Origin: Halomonas denitrificans
GTDB lineage: Bacteria; Pseudomonadota; Gammaproteobacteria; Xanthomonadales; Wenzhouxiangellaceae
NCBI GenBank assembly: GCA_019800895.1
Contig: JAHVKF010000001.1
Span: 682,001-746,000 of the forward strand
Direction: 5' to 3'
Length of the DNA stretch: 64,000 nucleotides
Positions within the stretch are counted from its first letter, which is position 1; every line of letters starts with the position of its first letter. The translations under genes and the position numbers were made by a program. Below, piece after piece: positions 27,600 through 37,757 of this stretch. The notes beneath the pieces are model-generated. The model did not search any database. It had not been told where the DNA came from and saw only the letters and a program-made list of their open reading frames with translations.

Positions 27600-28925
27600 A
27601 TGGCCTCGGATCCGAACGCGCCCGCGACCGGCGCCCGCCCCCGGGTCGCAGCCGCCCTGGCGCTGCGCGAGGTGCTCGACCGCGGTCGGGCCCTGACCGA
27701 CGCGCTCGAGGGCCTCGGCGACACGCTGCCCGACCGCCGCGACCGGGCCCAGGTCCGGCGCCTGTGCAACCGCGTGTTGCGCGACTGGCCGATGCTCGAC
27801 GCGGCCGTTCGGGGGCGCCTGAACAAGCCGCTGGACCGCCGCAACCGCTGGATCCACTTCCTGCTCGCCGTCGCGATCGACGAACTCAACGAGGGCCGCG
27901 AGCCGGCGCCGGCGGTGGTCCATGCCACGGTCGAAGCGGCCCGGGTCGGGCGCGCCGCGCCGCTGGCCGGCCTGGTCAACGCCGTGCTGCGCGGGCGCTT
28001 GCGCGACGGGGCCGGGACGCGGCCGGACGACGACGTCCACCGCTACGGCCTGCCCGGCTGGCTGGCCGCGCGAATCCGCGCCGACTGGCCGGACGAGGCC
28101 GACGAGGTTCTCGCCGCCGGCAACCGGCCGCCGCCGACCTGGCTGCGCGCCAACCGGCGCCGGTCCGATCCGACCGCACTGGCCGAGCGGCTGCACGCCG
28201 ACGGCATCGAGAGCCTCATCGACCCGCGCTTTCCCGACGCCCTGCGGCTGGCCCACCCGGTCGCCGTCGGCGACCTCCCGGGCCTGGCGGCCGGTGAGCT
28301 GTCGGTGCAGGACGCGGGCGCGCAATCGGCCGCCGATCTGCTCGATCTCGCCGACGGCCAGCGCGTGCTCGACGCGTGTGCCGCGCCCGGCGGCAAGGCC
28401 GCCCATATCCTCGAACGCGCGGCGGTGGAGCTGACCGCGGTCGAGTCGGACCCGGCGCGGGCGACGAAGGTCGTCGAGTCGCTTCGGCGGCTCGGCCTCG
28501 ACGCCGACGTCGTGACCGGCGACGCGGCGCGGCCGAACGACTGGTGGGACGGCCGCGCCTTCGACCGCATCCTGATCGACGCGCCCTGCTCCGCGACCGG
28601 CGTGCTGCGACGCCACCCGGACATCCGCTGGCTGCGCCGGGCCGGGGACATCGAGGCCAACGTCGCGCTGCAGGCCCGGCTGCTCGATGCCCTGTGGCCG
28701 CTGCTGGCACCCGGCGGTTTGCTTGTCTACGCGACCTGTTCGATACTGCACGCCGAGAATCGAGACCAGGGCCGAACCTTTCTTGACCGCCATCCCGATG
28801 CCGAGGCCGTCGACGTCGCGATCCCGGCCTGCCGGGACGTGGACCCGGGCGTCCAGATCCTGCCGGGCTCGCTGGATCGCGATGGCTTCTACTATCTGGC
28901 TGTGCGCCGCCTGCCAGCCGGCTGA
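27600..28925 (+). CDS. rsmB: 16S rRNA (cytosine-967-C5)-methyltransferase RsmB
   Basis: It methylates C967 of 16S rRNA. The 441 residues have an N-terminal NusB-like RNA-binding domain (~12-140) and a SAM-dependent methyltransferase domain (~150-441): 'VLDACAAPGGKAAHILERA' (SAM loop), 'DAPCSATGVLRRHPDIRW' (conserved Cys) and 'YATCSILHAENRDQ' (catalytic Cys). ATG 27600 follows the fmt stop by five bases. Confidence 0.95.
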   Translation: MASDPNAPATGARPRVAAALALREVLDRGRALTDALEGLGDTLPDRRDRAQVRRLCNRVLRDWPMLDAAVRGRLNKPLDRRNRWIHFLLAVAIDELNEGREPAPAVVHATVEAARVGRAAPLAGLVNAVLRGRLRDGAGTRPDDDVHRYGLPGWLAARIRADWPDEADEVLAAGNRPPPTWLRANRRRSDPTALAERLHADGIESLIDPRFPDALRLAHPVAVGDLPGLAAGELSVQDAGAQSAADLLDLADGQRVLDACAAPGGKAAHILERAAVELTAVESDPARATKVVESLRRLGLDADVVTGDAARPNDWWDGRAFDRILIDAPCSATGVLRRHPDIRWLRRAGDIEANVALQARLLDALWPLLAPGGLLVYATCSILHAENRDQGRTFLDRHPDAEAVDVAIPACRDVDPGVQILPGSLDRDGFYYLAVRRLPAG

Positions 28926-29415
28926 TCCGGGGCTCGGGCAACTCACGCTCGACCCGGCCGCGCGCTGGATCGACGACCGTCTGGTCATCGAGAGCCCGAT
29001 CGCGTTCCAGCCCAGTCCCGCGATCCGCGAGGCCCTCGATCACGGCGTCGACCTGCAGCTGGTCGTCGAACTGCGCGTCGCTCGCCGGCACGGGCCGATC
29101 GCCCGCGAGCTGCGCCTCCTCGCCCGGCCCTTCCGGATCCGCTACCTGCCGCTGCTCGAGCACTGGCAACTCGAAGATGCGGGCGACATCCGGACCTTTC
29201 CGCGCTTCTGGATGCTGCGCGAGGCGCTGGCCGAACCCCGGCTCTTCGAGACCGGCCTGGACCGCAGCGCGGCCGAGGAGCGCCCGCTCCAGGTCCAGAT
29301 CCGCGCCCGTGTCGACCGCGACGCGCTTCCCGCGCCGATGCACCTTCCCACCCTCTTTTCCGCCCAGTGGCACCTGGGCGATCGCTGGCACGCGTGGCAC
29401 TTCGGACCGTCCTGA
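28882..29415 (+). CDS. DUF4390 protein
   Basis: This 177-residue DUF4390 protein lies, as usual, between rsmB and an ntrY-type kinase. Family parts seen are 'LGQLTLDPAARWIDDRLVIE', 'QPSPAIREALDHGVDLQLVV' and 'FRIRYLPLLEHWQL'. Its 5' end overlaps rsmB by 44 bases and its start is uncertain: ATG 28882 gives 'MASTIWLCAACQPA', which has a lipobox-like 'LCAAC' but a very short leader. The 3' end overlaps the kinase gene. Probably envelope-associated; function unknown. Confidence 0.78.
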   Translation: MASTIWLCAACQPADPGLGQLTLDPAARWIDDRLVIESPIAFQPSPAIREALDHGVDLQLVVELRVARRHGPIARELRLLARPFRIRYLPLLEHWQLEDAGDIRTFPRFWMLREALAEPRLFETGLDRSAAEERPLQVQIRARVDRDALPAPMHLPTLFSAQWHLGDRWHAWHFGPS

Positions 29416-31604
29416 AGCGGGTCGGGCGCATCCTGCCGCTGGCCGCCTTCGCCGGGCTGCTGCTCACGGCGCTGTTCCTGGTCGCAAACGTCGAGCAGGA
29501 GTCGGGCCAGCTCGGCCGCATGAGCCTGTGGATCTTCCTGGTCACGGGGATCGCACTGCTGGTCCTGCTGGCGGCCATCGCGACCCGGCTCGCGCGGCTG
29601 GTCCGGGACGTCCGCCGCGGCCGGCCCGGCGCGCGCCTGCGCGCGCGGCTGGTCACGATCTTCACCGCCCTGGCGCTCCCACCGGTGGTCATCGTGTGGC
29701 TGTTCTCGACCGAGTTCCTGACCGAGACCATCGCCGGTTGGCTCGATGCCGGCACCGAGGCGGCGCTCGCCGACTCGATCGAACTCGGCCAGCTGTTCCT
29801 CGACCTGCGCACGCGCGAATCGCGCAATCGCCTGGCCCGGATCGCCGACGGCCTGCCGGCCGGCGGGCGCGGCCTCGACGAGGAACGCCAGCTCGACTAC
29901 CTGTTCGGCCAGCTGTCGTCGGCCGGCCCCGCCGAGCTCACCCTGTTCGACGCCTCCGGCCAGGTCCAGGCCCTGGTCCACCTCGACCCGGCGCGCATGG
30001 TCGCCGACCTGCCGTCGTCCTTCGCGCTGTCGCAGGCCGCCCGCGGCCAGCCCTACGCGGCGGCCGAACCGACCGCAGAAGGCATGCAGATCCGCGTCCT
30101 GATGCCGGTCGACACGGTGCCCGGCGAAGCCCGGACCCTGCAGGGCATCTTCCCGCTGCCCGACGATTTCGCCGTGCTGGCCGATTCGATCGAGCAGGCC
30201 TATTTCCGCCAGGAGAACGTGGCCTACCTGCGCCAGCGGCTGCAGCAGAGCTTCGTGCTGATCCTGTTCCTGGTCCTGGCGATGACCGCCCTGCTGGCCA
30301 TGCTGCTGGCCTTCAATGCCGCCGGACGGCTGGTCCGGCCGATCCGCGAACTGGCCGACGCCACCGAGTTGATGCGCCAGGGCCGCTTTCCGGAGACGCT
30401 CGACGTGCCCAGCCGCGACGAACTGGGCTTCCTGGTCGAGTCCTTCAACGACATGGCCACCGGCCTCGAGGCCGCGCAACGCGAACTGAGCAACGAGCGG
30501 CGCTACCTGCAGACGGTCCTGGCGCGGCTTTCCGCCGGCGTGCTGGCCTTCGACGGTGCACGCCGCCTCGAGGCGATGAACGACAGTGCCGGCGCGATTC
30601 TCGGCCTGGACCCGGCGAGCGCCCGCGGCCTGACCCCGGCCGAGCTCGCCGAGCGCCACCCGGCGCTGGCCGCGCTGTTCGAGGGCATCGACCGGCGAAT
30701 CGAACGGGCCGGCGGCGACTGGCGTGAAGAGATCAAGCTGGAACGGCCCGACACCGCACTCGCGCTGGTCTGCCGCGGGTCCACGCTGCCGGGCGACGAC
30801 GCCGGTCCGGGCGAGCGTTCCGAGGGTCCGGACCCGGACCGGGACGCCCCGCGACCGGCCGGCCACGTCGTGGTGTTCGACGACGTGACCCAGCTCGACC
30901 AGGCGCAGCGCCAGGCCGCCTGGGCGGAGCTGGCCCAGCGCCTCGCCCACGAAGTCAAGAACCCGCTGACGCCGATCCGGCTGGCCGCCGAACGTCTGAG
31001 CCTGAAGCTGGAACCGGTACTGGAAGGCGACCGCAGGCAACTGCTGGAGCGCGCGACCCGGACCATCGTCCACCAGGTCGACGCGCTGCGCGAACTGGTC
31101 GACGCGTTCGGCGACTACACCCGACCGGGCACGCCCCGGCGCGAACCGCTGGACGTCGAGGCGCTGGTTCGCGACGTGGTCGAACTGTGGACCACCGGCG
31201 ACAGCGGCGTGACCGTGACCATCGACCTGCAGGGCAGCGAGGCTCGGCCGCTCGGCGACCCCGGCCAGTTCCGGCAGATCCTGAACAACCTCGTCCAGAA
31301 CGCACGCGAAGCGCACCCGGACGGCGCGCCGCACCTGGTCATCCGTTCGCGGGCGCTGCGCCGCGACGGCCGCGACTGGCTGGGCCTCGAATTGCGCGAC
31401 GACGGGCCGGGCTTCGACCCCGCGATGCTGGCCCGGGTGTTCGAACCCTATGCCACGACCAAGCCGCGCGGAACCGGCCTGGGGCTTGCGATCGTCCACC
31501 GCATCGTCGACGCCATGGGTGGCCGGATCCGTGCCGCGAACGCCGAGAGCGGGGGCGCGCTGCTCACGCTGGAACTGCCGGTACCCGCGCAACCACCGCG
31601 ATGA
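29367..31604 (+). CDS. NtrY-like sensor histidine kinase
   Basis: This membrane histidine kinase has 745 residues. There are three N-terminal helices (~20-42, 50-72, 95-112), a periplasmic sensor region (~115-280), a fourth helix (~285-310), a HAMP domain (~310-365), a PAS-like segment (~375-440) and a kinase core. His528 in 'AQRLAHEVKNPLTPIRLAAE' is the phosphorylation site; 'QILNNLVQNAREAH', 'DDGPGFDPAML' and 'GTGLGLAIVHRIV' bind ATP. GTG 29367 overlaps DUF4390; GTG 29394 is a shorter option. It pairs with the response regulator 49 bases downstream and sits beside trkA/trkH. Confidence 0.88.
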   Translation: MAPGRSLARVALRTVLKRVGRILPLAAFAGLLLTALFLVANVEQESGQLGRMSLWIFLVTGIALLVLLAAIATRLARLVRDVRRGRPGARLRARLVTIFTALALPPVVIVWLFSTEFLTETIAGWLDAGTEAALADSIELGQLFLDLRTRESRNRLARIADGLPAGGRGLDEERQLDYLFGQLSSAGPAELTLFDASGQVQALVHLDPARMVADLPSSFALSQAARGQPYAAAEPTAEGMQIRVLMPVDTVPGEARTLQGIFPLPDDFAVLADSIEQAYFRQENVAYLRQRLQQSFVLILFLVLAMTALLAMLLAFNAAGRLVRPIRELADATELMRQGRFPETLDVPSRDELGFLVESFNDMATGLEAAQRELSNERRYLQTVLARLSAGVLAFDGARRLEAMNDSAGAILGLDPASARGLTPAELAERHPALAALFEGIDRRIERAGGDWREEIKLERPDTALALVCRGSTLPGDDAGPGERSEGPDPDRDAPRPAGHVVVFDDVTQLDQAQRQAAWAELAQRLAHEVKNPLTPIRLAAERLSLKLEPVLEGDRRQLLERATRTIVHQVDALRELVDAFGDYTRPGTPRREPLDVEALVRDVVELWTTGDSGVTVTIDLQGSEARPLGDPGQFRQILNNLVQNAREAHPDGAPHLVIRSRALRRDGRDWLGLELRDDGPGFDPAMLARVFEPYATTKPRGTGLGLAIVHRIVDAMGGRIRAANAESGGALLTLELPVPAQPPR

Positions 31605-31653
31605 TGTGCGCTATCCTTGGCGCGTTTCCCGCCTGCTCCGGACTTCCCCCACG

Positions 31654-32985
31654 ATGGCCGAACGCGTACTGATCGTCGACGACGAGCCGGACATCCGCGA
31701 ACTGGTCGGCGAAATCCTGGCCGACGAAGGCTTCGAAGTGGAGCTGGCCGGCGATGCGGAACAGGCGCGAAGCCTGCTGTCCGCGGCCTCTCCCGACCTG
31801 GTCCTGCTCGATGTCTGGATGCCCGGCTGCGACGGCGTCACGCTGCTCAAGGAATGGCGCGAACGCGGCGAGCTGCATTGCCCGGTGGTCATGATTTCCG
31901 GCCACGGCTCGGTCGAAGCGGCGGTCGAGGCCACCCGCCAGGGAGCCTTCGACTTCATCGAGAAGCCCGTCTCCATGGCGCGCCTGCTGGCGACCATCCG
32001 GCGCGCCCTGGCCGAGACCCGCAAGCACGAGCCGATCGGGGCCACCGAGGGCGAAAGCGACGTGATCGAACCGATCGGACGCAGCCCGGCCATCCAGCGC
32101 ATGCGCGACGCGCTGGCCGAGGTCTGCGCCGGCGCCGACGGCCACGTGCTGCTGCACGGCGAGCCGGGCAGCGGCTGCACCACGGTGGCCCGCTGGGTTC
32201 ACGCCCAGGCCGGCGGCGGCGGCTTCGTCCACCGGGTCTGCGACCGCAACGGGGACCGCGTGGCCGAGTGGATCGACCGGCTCTCCGGGGCCTCGTCCCA
32301 TCCGCCGCGCACGCTCTACCTCGACCGCCTCCACCAGCTCGGCGAGACGGGCTGGCGCCGCCTGGCCGAGTTGCTCGCCCTGCTCGAGGGCCGCGGCGGC
32401 GAGGCGATCCGCGTCATTGCTTCGACCGCGGCGGCCGACGGCGCCCCGGGCGCGGCCGCCGACAGCGCCGAGGCGTCCGCCGCTGCCGCCAAGCTCGGCC
32501 CGTTCCGCGCCGAGGTTCCGGCATTGCGCCAGCGCGCCGAGGACATCCCCGACCTGGTCCGCGCGCTGGCCGAGCGGCTGCCGGCGCGCGAGGGCCGGAC
32601 CTACCGCCCGATTCCTCTGCCGGCCCAGAACCGGCTGCGGCAGCACGACTGGCCCGGCAACCTCGCCGAGCTGGTCGACGTGGTCCGGAGCCTGCTCGAC
32701 GGTCGCGACAGCGCGGTCACGGTCGAGGAGATCGACGAGCGGCTGCAGGAAGCGGCACGGGCCGGCGCGGCCGGCACCACGCTGACCGACTCGCCGCTCT
32801 TCTCCCTGCCCCTGCGCGAGGCCCGGGAAGCCTTCGAGCGGCAGTACCTGATCGCCCGGCTGCGCGAGGTCGGCGGCAGCGTCGGCCAGCTGGCCGAGGG
32901 TGTGGAAATGGAACGCACCCACCTGTATCGCAAGCTCAAGCAGCTCGGCATCGACCCCAAGCAGCTCCAGGAGGACGACGCATGA
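31654..32985 (+). CDS. NtrX-like response regulator with a degenerate AAA+ domain
   Basis: This is the 443-residue partner of the NtrY-like kinase. The receiver domain is intact (Asp53 in 'LVLLDVWMPGCDG', Lys in 'FIEKPVS'). The central region should be a sigma-54-activating AAA+ domain but is eroded: the Walker A loop reads 'GEPGSGCTT' with Cys175 in place of lysine, Walker B reads 'LYLDRLHQLG' with Arg instead of Glu, and no GAFTGA loop exists. The C-terminal Fis-type helix-turn-helix ('GSVGQLAEGVEMERTHLYRK') remains. It therefore probably regulates by binding DNA without opening sigma-54 promoters. The start is ATG 31654. Confidence 0.88.
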   Translation: MAERVLIVDDEPDIRELVGEILADEGFEVELAGDAEQARSLLSAASPDLVLLDVWMPGCDGVTLLKEWRERGELHCPVVMISGHGSVEAAVEATRQGAFDFIEKPVSMARLLATIRRALAETRKHEPIGATEGESDVIEPIGRSPAIQRMRDALAEVCAGADGHVLLHGEPGSGCTTVARWVHAQAGGGGFVHRVCDRNGDRVAEWIDRLSGASSHPPRTLYLDRLHQLGETGWRRLAELLALLEGRGGEAIRVIASTAAADGAPGAAADSAEASAAAAKLGPFRAEVPALRQRAEDIPDLVRALAERLPAREGRTYRPIPLPAQNRLRQHDWPGNLAELVDVVRSLLDGRDSAVTVEEIDERLQEAARAGAAGTTLTDSPLFSLPLREAREAFERQYLIARLREVGGSVGQLAEGVEMERTHLYRKLKQLGIDPKQLQEDDA

Positions 32986-33019: not shown

Positions 33020-34396
33020 ATGCGGATCATCATTCTCGGTGCCGGCCAGGTCGGTTCGGGCATGGCCTACTCGCTGTCGCGCGAGGAGAACGACATCTCC
33101 GTCGTCGATACGGACCCCGAGCGCCTGCGCGAGCTGCAGGAAAAACTCGACATCCGGACCGTGCTCGGCCACGCCGCCCACCCGGAGACGCTGATCCGCG
33201 CCGGCATCGAGGACGCCGAGCTGCTGATCGCGCTGACCAACTCCGACGAGACCAACATGGTCGCCTGCCAGGTCGCCTATTCCCTGTTCAACACGCCGAC
33301 CAAGGTCGCGCGGGTCCGGGCCACGGACTACCTGTCGCACCCCGAGCTGTTCAACCGCGAGCACACGCCGATCGACGTCCTGATCAGCCCGGAGAAGCTG
33401 GTCACGGACCACATCCAGCGCTTGATCGACTACCCGGGCGCCCTGCAGGTCCTCGACTTCGCCGACGGCCGCGCCCAGCTCGTGGCGACCCGCGCCATCC
33501 GCGAAGGCAAGCTGGTGGGCCGAGCCCTGAAGAGCCTGCCCGACGAGCTGCCGCCCGGCGTCGATGCACGGGTTGCCGCGATCTTCCGCCGCGACCAGGC
33601 GATCATCCCCGAAGGCGACACGGTCATCGAGGTCGACGACATGGTGTTCTTCCTCGCCCCGACCCACGAAATCCGCGGCGTGATGGGTACCTTCGGCGCG
33701 ACCTCGGGACCGGCCCGGCGGGTGCTCCTGGCCGGCGGCGGCAACATCGGCGCCGGCCTCGCCCGGCGTCTCGAGCGCGACCACCACGTCAAGCTGATCG
33801 AGCGCGACCCGAAGCGCGCCGAACGGATCGCCGAGAACGTCGACACGGCGATCGTGCTGGTCGGCGATGCGGCCAACGAAGACCTGCTGCGCGAGGAAGG
33901 CATCGACGAGATGGACGTCTACTGCGCGTTGACCAACGACGACGAGGCCAACATCCTGTCGTCGATGCTGGCCAAGCGGATGGGAGCGAAGAAGGTCATC
34001 ACGCTGATCAACCGGCCGGCCTACGTCGATCTGGTCGAATCCGACCGCATCGATGTCGCGGTCAGCCCCCAGCAGATCACGATCGGCGCCCTGCTGACCC
34101 TGATGCGCAAGGGCCACATGGTCCGGGTGCATTCGCTCAGGCGCGGCGCCGCCGAGGCGATCGAGGTGGTCGCCCACGGCGACCCGGGCCGATCGCGCAT
34201 CGTCGGCCGGGAGATCGGCAGCATCCCGCTGCCGGACTCGACCACGATCGGCGCCATCGTCCGCGGCGACGACGTGGTGATCGCCCACCACGACGTGGTC
34301 ATCGAGCCCGAGGACCATGTGATCCTGTTCGTCGCCGACAAGCGCAGGATCGCCGAAGTCGAACGGCTGTTCGCGGTCGAAGCCGTGTTCGTCTGA
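33020..34396 (+). CDS. trkA: Trk potassium uptake regulatory protein TrkA
   Basis: This cytoplasmic NAD(H)-binding subunit gates the TrkH channel. The 458 residues consist of two tandem RCK units: the first Rossmann fold 'IIILGAGQVGSGMAYSLS', the first C-domain (~140-225), the second Rossmann fold 'RVLLAGGGNIGAGLARRLE' (~232) and the second C-domain (~370-458). Its stop overlaps the trkH start by one base (TGATG). It lies in the run with the two-component system. Confidence 0.96.
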   Translation: MRIIILGAGQVGSGMAYSLSREENDISVVDTDPERLRELQEKLDIRTVLGHAAHPETLIRAGIEDAELLIALTNSDETNMVACQVAYSLFNTPTKVARVRATDYLSHPELFNREHTPIDVLISPEKLVTDHIQRLIDYPGALQVLDFADGRAQLVATRAIREGKLVGRALKSLPDELPPGVDARVAAIFRRDQAIIPEGDTVIEVDDMVFFLAPTHEIRGVMGTFGATSGPARRVLLAGGGNIGAGLARRLERDHHVKLIERDPKRAERIAENVDTAIVLVGDAANEDLLREEGIDEMDVYCALTNDDEANILSSMLAKRMGAKKVITLINRPAYVDLVESDRIDVAVSPQQITIGALLTLMRKGHMVRVHSLRRGAAEAIEVVAHGDPGRSRIVGREIGSIPLPDSTTIGAIVRGDDVVIAHHDVVIEPEDHVILFVADKRRIAEVERLFAVEAVFV

Positions 34397-35844
34397 TGCG
34401 GGCCTACGCGCCGGTCCAACGCGTCGTCGGCCTGTTGCTGGTGTTCCTGTCGGTCGGCTTCGTGCCGCCGCTGCTGTTCGCATTGGCCAACGGCGACGGC
34501 GCGACGGGGCCCTTCCTCGCCAGCCTGGTCACGGTCGCGCTGATCGGCAGCGCGCTGTACCTGCCGGTGCGCAACAACCGGCGCGAGCTGCGCGTCGCCG
34601 ACGGCTTCCTGGTGGTGGTGGCGTGCTGGGGCGCCGTGGCGCTGGCCGGCGCCCTGCCGCTGTACCTGGTCCTGGACATCGGCCTGGCCGACGCGGTGTT
34701 CGAGTCCACCTCGGGCATCACCACCACCGGCGCGACGGTGCTGGCCGGCCTCGACGACATGCCGATCTCGATCCGCTGGTACCGCCAGCAGCTCCAGTGG
34801 ATGGGCGGGCTCGGCATCATCGTCCTGGCGGTGGCGATCCTGCCGATGCTGCGGATCGGCGGCATGGAAATCTACAAGGCCGAGGTGACCGGGCCGGTCA
34901 AGGAGAACCGCCTCACGCCGCGCATCGCCGAGACCGCCAAGGCGCTGTGGCTGATCTACATCGGCCTGACCGTGATCTGCTCGCTGGCCCTGTGGGCCGC
35001 CGGCATGAACGTCTTCGACGCGGTCACCCATGCCTTCACCACGATTTCCACCGCCGGCTTCTCCACCTACGACGCCTCGGTGGCGCAGTTCGACAGTGCG
35101 CTGATCGACTGGTTGCTGGTGCTGTTCATGTTCGTCGCCTCGATGAACTTCGCCCTGCACTTCCTGGCCCTGCGCCGGGCCACCGCGCAGGTCTACCTGC
35201 ACGACCCGGAACTCAAGCTGTTCGCGATCCTGCTGCTCGGCATCTCGATCCTGATCACCGTGCTGCTGTGGCGCCAGGGCGTCTACGAGACCTTCTGGGA
35301 ATCGCTGCGCTACGCGGCCTTCCACGCGGTGTCCTACACCACGACCACGGGCTTCACGGCCGCCGACGTCTACCTCTGGCCGGGCACGCTGCCGCTCCTG
35401 ATGATCCTGATCTCGGGCCTCGGCGGCTGCGCCGGCTCGACCACCGGCGGCTTCAAGATCGTGCGCGTGTACCTGGTGTCCAAGCAGGGCCTGCGCGAGC
35501 TCAAGCGGCTGATCCACCCGCGCTCGGTGGTGCCCCTGAAGCTCGGCGGCCGGACCCTGAACCCCGAGGTCGCCAACGCCGTGTGGGGCTTCGTATCGCT
35601 CTACATCGTCTGCATCGTGTTCCTGACCCTGATCGTCTCCAGCCTGGAAGAAGACCTGGTGACCTCCGTGTCCGTGGTGTTCTCGGCGATGAACAACCTC
35701 GGCCCGGCGCTCGGCGAGGCCGGCGCCAACTGGGGCGGGCTCTCGGACACGACCAAGTGGCTGATGAGCTTCGCCATGCTGCTCGGCCGGCTGGAGATCT
35801 TCACCGTGCTGGTCCTGCTGACGCCCACCTACTGGAAGCACTGA
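34396..35844 (+). CDS. trkH: Trk potassium transporter membrane subunit TrkH
   Basis: This potassium-translocating subunit of 482 residues has about ten or more membrane helices. The four pore-loop filters of the family are seen around 'FESTSGITTTGATVL', 'FTTISTAGFSTYDAS', 'SYTTTTGFTAADVYLW' and 'FSAMNNLGPALGEAG', each with the conserved glycine. It starts within the trkA stop, so the two subunits are made together. No terminator is evident before metX, 52 bases on. Confidence 0.96.
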   Translation: MRAYAPVQRVVGLLLVFLSVGFVPPLLFALANGDGATGPFLASLVTVALIGSALYLPVRNNRRELRVADGFLVVVACWGAVALAGALPLYLVLDIGLADAVFESTSGITTTGATVLAGLDDMPISIRWYRQQLQWMGGLGIIVLAVAILPMLRIGGMEIYKAEVTGPVKENRLTPRIAETAKALWLIYIGLTVICSLALWAAGMNVFDAVTHAFTTISTAGFSTYDASVAQFDSALIDWLLVLFMFVASMNFALHFLALRRATAQVYLHDPELKLFAILLLGISILITVLLWRQGVYETFWESLRYAAFHAVSYTTTTGFTAADVYLWPGTLPLLMILISGLGGCAGSTTGGFKIVRVYLVSKQGLRELKRLIHPRSVVPLKLGGRTLNPEVANAVWGFVSLYIVCIVFLTLIVSSLEEDLVTSVSVVFSAMNNLGPALGEAGANWGGLSDTTKWLMSFAMLLGRLEIFTVLVLLTPTYWKH

Positions 35845-35896: not shown

Positions 35897-36982
35897 ATGG
35901 GACCGGCCACCAACTACTACGTCCATCGCCACGCGTTCCCGCTCTACCGCGGCGGATCGCTCGCAAGCCTGCAGCTGGCCTGGGAGAGCTGGGGCACCCT
36001 GAACGCCGAGCGCAGCAACGCGGTGCTCCTGTTCACCGGCCTGTCGCCCGGCGCCCATGCCGCCAGCAGCGAGCGCGACCCGGAACCGGGCTGGTGGGAG
36101 GACATGGTCGGCCCCGGCAAACCGATCGATACGGACCGCTGGTTCGTCCTCTGCGTCAATTCCCTGGGCTCGTGCAAGGGATCGACGGGACCGGCCAGCA
36201 TCAACCCCGAGACCGGTCGCCCCTGGCGGCTGAGCTTTCCGGAACTGGCGATCGACGACGTCGCCCGCGCGACGCGGCTGGTCGTCGACCACCTCGGCAT
36301 CGAGCGCCTGGCGGCCATCGTCGGCCCGTCGATGGGCGGCCTGACCGCCCTGGCCTGGATCAAGCACTTTCCCGACTCCGCCGACCGGATGGCGTTGATC
36401 TCGACCGCCTGCTCGGCCACGCCGATGGCGATCGCGATCCGCTCGCTGCAGCGCGAGGCCATCGTCACCGACCGCAACTTCCGCGACGGGCGCTACACGG
36501 AGGACGACTGGCCCGAGGTCGGCATGCGCATCGCGCGCAAGCTCGGCATGATCTCCTACCGCTCGGCCAGCGAATGGCAGGACCGCTTCGGTCGGCGGCC
36601 GCAGGATTATTTCCCGACCACGCCCTTCGGCATGCGCTTCGAGGTCGAGTCCTATCTCGAGACCCACGCGCGCAAGTTCGTCGGCAGCTTCGACCCCTGC
36701 TGCTACCTGTACCTGTCGCGTGCGATGGACCTGTTCGACTCCTGCGACAGCGACAAGGGCCTGCGTGCGCTGTTCCGGCGCAGTTTCTCCGGCAAGGCGC
36801 TGGTCATCGGCGTCGAGACCGACCTCCTGTTCCCGCTCTGGCAGCAGCGCGAACTGGCCGCCGCGCTCGAGGCCGAAGACGCCGAGGTCGAGTTCCACGC
36901 CCTGGCCTCGGCCCAGGGGCACGATGCCTTTCTGGTAGACTTCGAGCGATTCGGACCACCGATTTCAGCGTGGCTGGACTGA
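35897..36982 (+). CDS. metX: MetX-family acyltransferase, probably serine O-succinyltransferase
   Basis: This 361-residue alpha/beta-hydrolase-fold acyltransferase has Ser145 in 'IVGPSMGGLTAL' (nucleophile), Asp in 'IGVETDLLFP' and His in 'SAQGHDAFLVDFERFG'. Its text ('WWEDMVGPGKPIDTDRWF', 'NSLGSCKGSTGPASINP', 'FDPCCYLYLSRAMDL') closely resembles the Xanthomonas/Lysobacter subgroup that was reassigned from homoserine acetyltransferase to serine O-succinyltransferase, which makes O-succinylserine for cysteine synthesis. That reassignment is from memory. The cysteine dioxygenase-type gene 31 bases downstream fits a cysteine role. Homoserine O-acyltransferase remains the alternative. Confidence 0.85.
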   Translation: MGPATNYYVHRHAFPLYRGGSLASLQLAWESWGTLNAERSNAVLLFTGLSPGAHAASSERDPEPGWWEDMVGPGKPIDTDRWFVLCVNSLGSCKGSTGPASINPETGRPWRLSFPELAIDDVARATRLVVDHLGIERLAAIVGPSMGGLTALAWIKHFPDSADRMALISTACSATPMAIAIRSLQREAIVTDRNFRDGRYTEDDWPEVGMRIARKLGMISYRSASEWQDRFGRRPQDYFPTTPFGMRFEVESYLETHARKFVGSFDPCCYLYLSRAMDLFDSCDSDKGLRALFRRSFSGKALVIGVETDLLFPLWQQRELAAALEAEDAEVEFHALASAQGHDAFLVDFERFGPPISAWLD

Positions 36983-37013
36983 TCCCGAACCGAGCGGAGG
37001 AGCCGGAGTCACC

Positions 37014-37595
37014 ATGTCAGGGATGACGCTCGAATTCGAAGGAAAACAGGAACTCGTCAAGCGCCTCGACGCGGTCATGGACGGCGACTGTGCGCGCACC
37101 ATCACCGCCTGCGTGCGCAACGTGCTCTGCGACCTGGTCGACAACCGGGTGCTGGCCCTGCCGGCCTGCGTCCACGACTGCCCCGGCGATCATTACGGGC
37201 GTCGGCTCATCCACAAGGACCAGGAGCGCGGCTACACGATCATGGCGATGACCTGGGGCCCGGGCCAGGCGACCCCGATCCACGACCACAGCGGCATGTG
37301 GTGCGTCGAGGCGGTCTGGCAGGGCGAGATCGAGGTCGTCCAGTACGAGCTGACCGAAACCCGCGGCGATCGCTTCTGCCTCGAACCGCGGACCACGATG
37401 CGCGCCGGCGTCGGCAGCGCCGGCAGCCTGATCCCGCCGCACGAGTACCACACGATCGCCAACCCCTCGCCGCGCTCGAATGCGGTGACGATCCACATCT
37501 ATTCCGGCGAGATGACCGAGTGCTGCGTGTTCCGCCCGCTCGAGGGCGACTGGTACGAGCGCTCCAGGACCGAGCTGCATCTCGACGCGGCCTGA
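37014..37595 (+). CDS. Cysteine dioxygenase-type cupin
   Basis: This 193-residue thiol dioxygenase of the CDO type adds O2 to a thiol such as cysteine or 3-mercaptopropionate to give a sulfinate. The iron-binding three-histidine set is His90 and His92 in 'PIHDHSGMWCVEAV' and His161 in 'AVTIHIYSGEM'; 'PPHEYHTIAN' also fits. ATG 37014 follows a GGAGGAG-like ribosome site. It is 31 bases downstream of the serine O-succinyltransferase gene and probably co-transcribed with it. The exact thiol is not set by the sequence. Confidence 0.88.
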   Translation: MSGMTLEFEGKQELVKRLDAVMDGDCARTITACVRNVLCDLVDNRVLALPACVHDCPGDHYGRRLIHKDQERGYTIMAMTWGPGQATPIHDHSGMWCVEAVWQGEIEVVQYELTETRGDRFCLEPRTTMRAGVGSAGSLIPPHEYHTIANPSPRSNAVTIHIYSGEMTECCVFRPLEGDWYERSRTELHLDAA

Positions 37596-37670: not shown

Positions 37671-37757
37671 GCCGGGGTGGTGGAATTGGTAGACACGACG
37701 GACTCAAAATCCGTTTCTGGAAACAGAGTGAGGGTTCAAGTCCCTCCCCCGGCACCA
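37671..37757 (+). tRNA. tRNA-Leu (anticodon CAA)
   Basis: This is an 87-base class II tRNA with CCA encoded. The acceptor stem is GCCGGGG / CCCCGGC, the anticodon stem is ACGGA / TCCGT with loop CTCAAAA (anticodon CAA at 37705-37707), there is a long variable arm (37713-37727), and the T-arm is GAGGG-TTCAAGT-CCCTC. It reads UUG codons. Its last 22 bases overlap, on the opposite strand, the 3' end of the EAL gene. Confidence 0.96.

Follow-up and report, generated by a model that had tools for sequence, protein, structure and literature searches.

An NtrX-like response regulator with a degenerate AAA+ domain from Halomonas denitrificans, and the state of its ATPase motifs among relatives

The stretch of DNA analyzed here (the window) comprises 64,000 nucleotides of the Halomonas denitrificans assembly GCA_019800895.1 (contig JAHVKF010000001.1, positions 682,001 to 746,000), a 3.2-Mb, 99.98% complete gammaproteobacterial genome of Wenzhouxiangella type, and it carries an intact open reading frame (ORF) at 31654..32985 on the + strand whose 443-amino-acid product is, by sequence, an NtrX-like response regulator. 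At the sequence level, the central AAA+ domain of this protein is shown to be no longer functional as an ATPase, and the protein should neither bind or hydrolyze ATP in the usual manner nor drive sigma-54 promoters. Two steps can be told apart in this decay, as read from aligned relatives, the absence of the GAFTGA loop being an older, family-wide step and the loss of the ATP site a recent step in the genus with many parallels elsewhere. We think it likely that the window protein regulates ordinary promoters under the control of phosphorylation and independently of ATP; its AAA+ part would then be a structural relic.

ATP-site motifs, constraint and fold of the window protein

The coordinates, frame and start of the ORF were verified, with the ATG at 31654 and the stop codon ending at 32985. 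Its product has three parts, a receiver, a degenerate AAA+ region made up of core and lid, and a Fis-type helix-turn-helix (HTH). The receiver domain (residues 1-120, 31654..32013, + strand; PF00072, 108.5 bits) has the phospho-acceptor site expected of NtrX, with the acceptor D53 and its companions D9, D10 and K104 lying in invariant columns of a 61-row alignment. The catalytically degenerate AAA+ core (residues 141-291, 32074..32526, + strand), placed by PF14532 and by motif columns, is followed by the AAA+ lid (AAA_lid_14, residues 292-371, 32527..32766, + strand; PF25601, 43.6 bits against a cut-off of 27) and by the HTH (residues 387-434, 32812..32955, + strand; PF02954, 26.8 bits against a cut-off of 22), and the alignment with Brucella NtrX extends through residue 433, as expected of an NtrX with this DNA-binding end. 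The best NCBIfam match was the NtrX model NF051870, at 270.9 bits against a cut-off of 600. On the same model, two alphaproteobacterial NtrX proteins scored 738 and 703, two gammaproteobacterial ones 485 and 446, one from the window's own family 406 and one from the betaproteobacteria 269; since the cut-off appears to be fitted to the alpha type, we file the window protein as NtrX-like, of the gamma/beta type, and not as an NF051870 equivalog.

The ATP site of this protein is lost at several positions. The Walker A remnant GEPGSGCT (residues 169-176, 32158..32181, + strand), read to residue 177 as GEPGSGCTT, holds Cys175 (32176-32178) where the lysine is expected, and the Walker B remnant D224-R225 (32323..32328, + strand), within LYLDRL, has Arg225 in place of the glutamate. 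The arginine-finger columns hold Ala and Lys, and the sensor II arginine is replaced by Ala338 (32665-32667), two losses beyond those listed in an earlier note made from the letters alone. The finger, Walker B and GAFTGA columns throughout were read from one indel-rich MAFFT alignment, so the reading of an individual row may be wrong. The Walker A Lys, Walker B Asp-Glu pair, arginine fingers and sensor II Arg expected of a bacterial enhancer-binding protein (bEBP) are thus not in place, and no GAFTGA-like stretch, also expected of a bEBP, was found in the window protein. The central region still matches PF14532 (39.9 bits, cut-off 25), while its score with the sister model PF00158 (16.6 bits) falls below the cut-off of 20.2.

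A displaced Walker A lysine was considered and rejected, as a pattern search found no GxxxxGK[ST] anywhere in the protein and a listing of every lysine (66, 104, 124, 280, 427, 429 and 436) left only K280 in the central region. Sequencing error was likewise rejected because an independently sequenced second species, Wenzhouxiangella sp. XN79A (L009/L038; 74-76% amino acid identity), reads GEPGTGCTT and LDRL and so carries the same Cys and Arg. The earlier note had described well-preserved receiver and Fis-type ends around a GSGCTT without the Walker A lysine, an LDRL without the Walker B glutamate and no GAFTGA, and had expected neither ATP hydrolysis nor opening of sigma-54 promoters. The alignment bears out this description, the expectation agrees with the missing catalytic residues, and neither of the findings it named as fatal, a displaced lysine or GAFTGA equivalent and a sequencing error, came to light.

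The four members of the genus in which ntrX was found (L008-L011) group within the family as a single clade (SH-aLRT 98) from which the lysine is missing throughout, so the loss is not a matter of chance; the two members other than the window and XN79A have Arg at the Walker A lysine and His or Pro at the Walker B glutamate. Among full-length rows of the window's family, the Walker A lysine is kept in 27 of 33, and the Walker B glutamate and the first arginine finger are kept in none of the 33 as aligned. Hydrolysis was therefore probably lost in the ancestor of the family, and ATP binding later, in the genus. For residual ATP binding without hydrolysis speak the GEPGSG loop frame, which is kept, the crystallization of Brucella NtrX with ATP, and Rhodobacter capsulatus NtrC, which is reported to need ATP binding and not hydrolysis (PMC10274813); we hold this to be a slim prospect for the window protein.

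The AAA core is freer than its neighboring domains, and more so in this genus. The four genus members are on average 72.1% identical in the receiver, 38.6% in the AAA core, 55.6% in the lid and 89.6% in the HTH, and among 16 lysine-keeping members of the same family, the corresponding means are 78% for the receiver, 61% for the core and 84% for the HTH. The window core is 64, 36 and 26% identical to those of the other three genus members, and its HTH is 85-94% identical to theirs. The ratio of nonsynonymous to synonymous substitution rates (dN/dS), estimated by the Nei-Gojobori method for the single pair of window and XN79A and without a significance test, was 0.20 for the receiver, 0.55 for the AAA core, 0.59 for the lid and 0.11 for the HTH. 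In three more distant pairs, the core ratios were 0.98, 0.45 and 0.36 and the HTH ratios ranged over 0.04-0.18, those of the pairs with dS above 1 being rough.

These figures bear on whether ntrX is decaying into a pseudogene that no longer regulates. Besides the missing catalytic residues of one domain, such a view could draw on two further genomes of the genus (G002 and G003) that have no full ntrX match and on a locus of the same order, L136 (G054:C1:1598500-1605500), in which the ntrX match falls into two pieces and the gene is possibly broken. Both of those genomes, however, are metagenome-assembled genomes (MAGs) only 83-85% complete, with a fragmentary trkA match in G003 (residues 217-457) and none in G002, so that the missing ntrX match need not mean that the gene is absent from them. 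An NtrY-like match in G003 was rejected as NtrY, having proved to be another kinase. The frame is open in all four genus members where ntrX was found, the receiver and HTH are constrained at the ratios given above, and the kinase and the cluster order are kept, which together make decay into a pseudogene very unlikely.

The AAA+ domain is predicted to fold although its site residues are gone. The AlphaFold2 model, built from the 61-row alignment, has a mean predicted local distance difference test score (pLDDT) of 90.1 and a predicted template modeling score (pTM) of 0.72, and both core and lid are filled with helices and strands. The top Foldseek match was Brucella NtrX 5m7p (E 7e-29), whose entries are titled as ATP and ADP complexes, and VIA-align against 5m7p_B gave a Z of 23.9 over 390 residues with a root-mean-square deviation of 19.8, which we interpret as similar domains that are arranged differently. 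A domain that has lost ATP might instead be a sensor, either of a nucleotide second messenger as its ligand or of a redox signal by way of Cys175 in the former P-loop. The high confidence of the fold would suit such a sensor, as would the presence among the matched folds of VpsR and FleQ, whose Protein Data Bank (PDB) titles name c-di-GMP, and the cysteine is common to the two nearest species, with some constraint persisting. The cysteine is found, however, in only 2 of 223 NtrX-like proteins, the other two genus members have Arg there, and the drop of core identity to 26-36% against those two is unlike a kept ligand site. We therefore regard a ligand-sensing role as unlikely, and continue with the view that the window protein works independently of ATP.

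GAFTGA, the Walker A lysine and sigma-54 across NtrX-like proteins

The earlier note had suggested aligning NtrX homologues to see when the motifs were lost and searching the genome for rpoN, and both were done. Of 260 gathered loci, 7 were controls or had no match, 4 gave short rows and 26 were duplicates, which left 223 distinct NtrX-like proteins, of which 33 rows (L084-L117) are mostly alphaproteobacterial and the 190 outside them represent the gamma/beta side. This sample is biased toward relatives of the window, and a draw of genomes from the class is the fairer one; in that draw, 117 of 185 genomes had a match at E 1e-40, and once the genome of the window itself and G117, whose protein has no core, were removed, 115 full-length proteins remained.

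GAFTGA was missing from 218 of the 223 proteins, including every one of the 190 gamma/beta rows, and the GAFTGA-like stretches in the other five (L095, L097, L112, L116 and L117) all belong to organisms outside Pseudomonadota by record title. The motif was therefore not lost along with the other motifs of the window protein. This divides the earlier claim of a broken domain, which holds for the ATP site, whose loss is local, and fails where it counted the missing GAFTGA as part of the same breakage.

The Walker A lysine was kept in 181 of the 223 proteins and lost in 42, the window included, the replacements being Arg in 26, Phe in 5, Ala in 4, Cys, Leu and Ile in 2 each and Gln in 1. Losses number 41 among the 190 rows of the gamma/beta side against 1 among the 33 others, and in the class draw, the lysine was missing from 23 of 115 proteins spread over 20 family groups. 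On a tree built from receiver, lid and HTH columns only, the lysine state changes 19 times, against a mean of 39 with shuffled labels, and 17, 14 and 7 times once branches below SH-aLRT 80, 90 and 95 are collapsed in favor of fewest changes. These counts indicate that the lysine changed repeatedly, partly following kinship, and the outgroup and the part that the residue plays in catalysis point to loss as the direction. The open-licence literature searched yielded no description of NtrX losing Walker A repeatedly.

Erosion of the site as one package was rejected. Walker A loss is associated with loss of sensor II, whose Arg is kept in 24 of 41 proteins without the lysine against 124 of 149 with it (p 0.001), and is not clearly tied to loss of the Walker B glutamate (p 0.37) or of the first finger (p 0.11); with associations so uneven, the residues do not disappear together in a fixed order. 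In 13 of the 223, the window protein included, none of the four residues (lysine, glutamate, first finger, sensor II) remains. At the far end lies the protein of G117, L253 (G117:C148:9000-14055), an NtrX of about 285 amino acids with receiver, lid and HTH and no AAA core, apparently through an in-frame deletion of the core, although this is a single case from a MAG 84% complete in which an assembly fault is possible.

Loss of sigma-54 itself as the cause of the AAA+ decay was rejected for the window's genome, in which rpoN is present, as it is in all 15 near relatives tested. The genome also encodes four strong PF00158 proteins elsewhere, three of which were seen to have whole motifs, and so the cell probably uses sigma-54 via other regulators. 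In the class draw, 113 of the 117 genomes with an NtrX had a match to rpoN and four did not (G099, G146, G236 and G238), three of these four having an NtrX without the lysine. The presence of rpoN and of the four strong activator domains, together with the partly conserved lid, would also allow NtrX to touch the sigma-54 system still, as a spoiler that mixes into or competes with intact activators such as NtrC. The HTH is more strongly kept than the AAA part, however, and of the 23 class genomes whose NtrX lacks the lysine, 3 gave no rpoN (one of them 72% complete), so that such an NtrX seems able to do without sigma-54; we give this spoiler role very little credence.

Gene cluster and kinase

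The genes around ntrX lie in the order rsmB-plrP(DUF4390)-ntrY-ntrX-trkA-trkH, the order of a PlrSR-type cluster, and all are on the + strand. Immediately upstream is an ntrY-like sensor histidine kinase of 745 amino acids (29367..31604), whose HAMP, HisKA and HATPase domains score over their cut-offs, with PAS below its cut-off, and whose match to PF19312 NtrY_N (23.2 bits) lies exactly at the cut-off of 23.2. An NtrX is thus found beside its expected kinase, whose motifs HEVKN, NLVQNAREA, DDGPGF and GTGLGL look complete. In PlrS, the Asn four residues after the His is reported to be required for phosphatase action (PMC13001219). The cluster begins with rsmB, encoding a 16S rRNA methyltransferase (27600..28925; PF01189, 190.3 bits), and a plrP-like DUF4390 gene of uncertain start (28882..29415; PF14334, 69.1 bits against a cut-off of 27, the frame 28687-29415 having been scanned). 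In the window and in L038, L039, L041, L043, L046 and L049, plrP encodes a short hydrophobic stretch that ends in a lipobox-like AGC or AAC (VGC in L041) and overlaps the end of rsmB, and PlrP may be a lipoprotein in the window's family.

Downstream of ntrX lie trkA, a potassium uptake regulator (33020..34396; PF02254, 188 bits, scanned from 33023), and trkH, a potassium transport channel (34396..35844; PF02386, 283.4 bits). Counted over gamma/beta-side loci of at least 5 kb with room to see the gene, ntrY stands beside ntrX in 109 of 125, trkA in 98 of 124, trkH in 75 of 105 and rsmB in 19 of 24; for plrP, a search with one query only, and so a weak one, gave 50 of 111. The earlier note had suggested a simple activator or repressor under the NtrY-like kinase, perhaps of potassium or envelope genes. 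The adjacent kinase fits the first part; trkA and trkH are connected to NtrX by position only, and envelope genes would be targets by analogy to Rhodobacter sphaeroides, where NtrYX is reported to act on them (PMC7240162).

In the gap between ntrY and ntrX, TATCCT (31612..31617, + strand) is a candidate -10 box of an ntrX promoter, picked out by enrichment of TATNCT. Of 32 family loci, 21 have this word upstream of ntrX where shuffles give 1.4, an excess inflated by the relatedness of the rows, and outside the family 24 of 157 loci have it, against 8.4. A second word, ACAATA, occurs in 14 of the 32 family upstream regions and is absent from the stretch before ntrX in the window. A scan for GCA-N9-TGC around the cluster gave 6 places in 10 kb, the pattern being too short to be informative on NtrX sites. 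Beyond trkH lie genes for an alpha/beta-hydrolase, perhaps MetX-like, and a cysteine dioxygenase (35897-37595), followed by a tRNA gene (37671-37754).

Proposed mechanism and comparison with known systems

In the mechanism we propose, NtrY would phosphorylate D53 of NtrX, the phosphorylated receiver would set the pairing of NtrX, and the Fis-type HTH would bind DNA and help or block the ordinary sigma-70-type RNA polymerase. Given its predicted fold and weak residual constraint, the degenerate AAA+ domain might serve as a folded spacer or a pairing surface. Historically, the family would have quit sigma-54 before the gamma and beta branches formed, because GAFTGA is missing in every gamma/beta row examined, and the ATPase machinery would then have eroded repeatedly, with this genus an advanced case.

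Several observations weigh against this account. Core dN/dS is below 1 in all four pairs (0.36-0.98), so freedom from constraint is not demonstrated. The full set of scored ATPase positions, with R, H or K allowed at the second finger, is present in 49 of the 223 proteins, and all scored positions are kept in 17 of the 115 of the class draw. Structures of Brucella NtrX were obtained with ATP and with ADP. Some members may thus still depend on nucleotide, and Caulobacter NtrC, also without GAFTGA, is reported to require its Walker residues (PMC10274813). In addition, rpoN was not found in 3 of 23 lysine-less against 1 of 92 other class genomes, with G117 and the window's genome excluded (Fisher p 0.025, from a test that ignores kinship and with one of the three lysine-less MAGs 72% complete), a hint that rpoN loss and Walker A loss may be linked in some lineages and a finding that tells against their independence in every lineage.

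Taken to the whole gamma/beta branch of NtrX, the proposal would be that the entire AAA+ ATPase has been released from duty, turning an enhancer-type regulator into an ordinary response regulator with its motor a relic. For this wider claim, which is based on about 14 or more supported changes at the Walker A lysine and on one protein from which the core between receiver and lid seems to have been cleanly removed, we see the chances as evenly balanced. If true, the series, which starts at an ATPase complete but for GAFTGA and passes by way of a lost ATP site to a deleted core, would be a natural experiment in turning a motor protein into a switch, and it would offer a clean test of the role of AAA+ in a motor-less regulator, with L253 as an apparent natural receiver-lid-HTH form. 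Annotation by domains counts receiver-AAA+-HTH proteins as sigma-54 activators, a label that is doubtful for the gamma/beta branch since none of its 190 rows has a GAFTGA-like stretch; a 2025 survey of Acidithiobacillia lists NtrX as such an activator by its domains (PMC12194929). NtrYX-type systems have been linked to the control of respiration, envelope and iron and, in the case of Bordetella PlrSR, to infection (PMC13001219). A mechanism from a harmless environmental bacterium could therefore carry over to other systems of this type.

Among systems already described, Brucella abortus NtrX (PDB 5m7n, 5m7o and 5m7p) is the best PDB match of the window protein both by sequence (E 3e-63) and by fold. 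It has likewise a receiver, AAA+ and Fis-type HTH in one chain and no GAFTGA in the alignment; unlike the window protein, it keeps the Walker A Lys and Walker B Asp-Glu, was crystallized with ATP and ADP, and is encoded in an alphaproteobacterial cluster described as lying behind ntrBC (PMC13001219). Caulobacter NtrX is also reported to be without GAFTGA (PMC10274813). Sinorhizobium meliloti NtrX is reported to bind CAA-N2-5-TTG and has been proposed to act as a block at promoters whose start is overlapped by such a site (PMC9223101). By gene order, the closest likeness is Bordetella PlrSR, whose cluster is given as rsmB-plrP-plrS-plrR-trkA-trkH with a sensor carrying HE(I/V)KN (PMC13001219). 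An internal promoter at the end of plrS is reported there, with which the -10-like box seen in the window agrees, and the genetic evidence for PlrP action on the kinase in the periplasm comes from Bordetella only. The same source states, citing Bonato 2016, that betaproteobacterial NtrX lacks the AAA+ domain, unlike the window protein, which keeps a degenerate one. Three beta NtrX proteins in our survey (L079, L082 and L083) still match PF14532 at 82-111 bits, with the lysine missing and the motifs dead, and at least part of the reported absence may therefore be decay rather than deletion.

The likeness of mechanism is to bEBP-type regulators without GAFTGA that are reported to act at sigma-70 promoters, namely NtrC of R. 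capsulatus and Caulobacter and VpsR of Vibrio cholerae (PMC10274813). By that account, R. capsulatus NtrC needs to bind ATP and Caulobacter NtrC needs its Walker A and B residues, whereas in the window protein, the ATP site is gone; VpsR, which is reported not to need ATP, is the nearer analogue.
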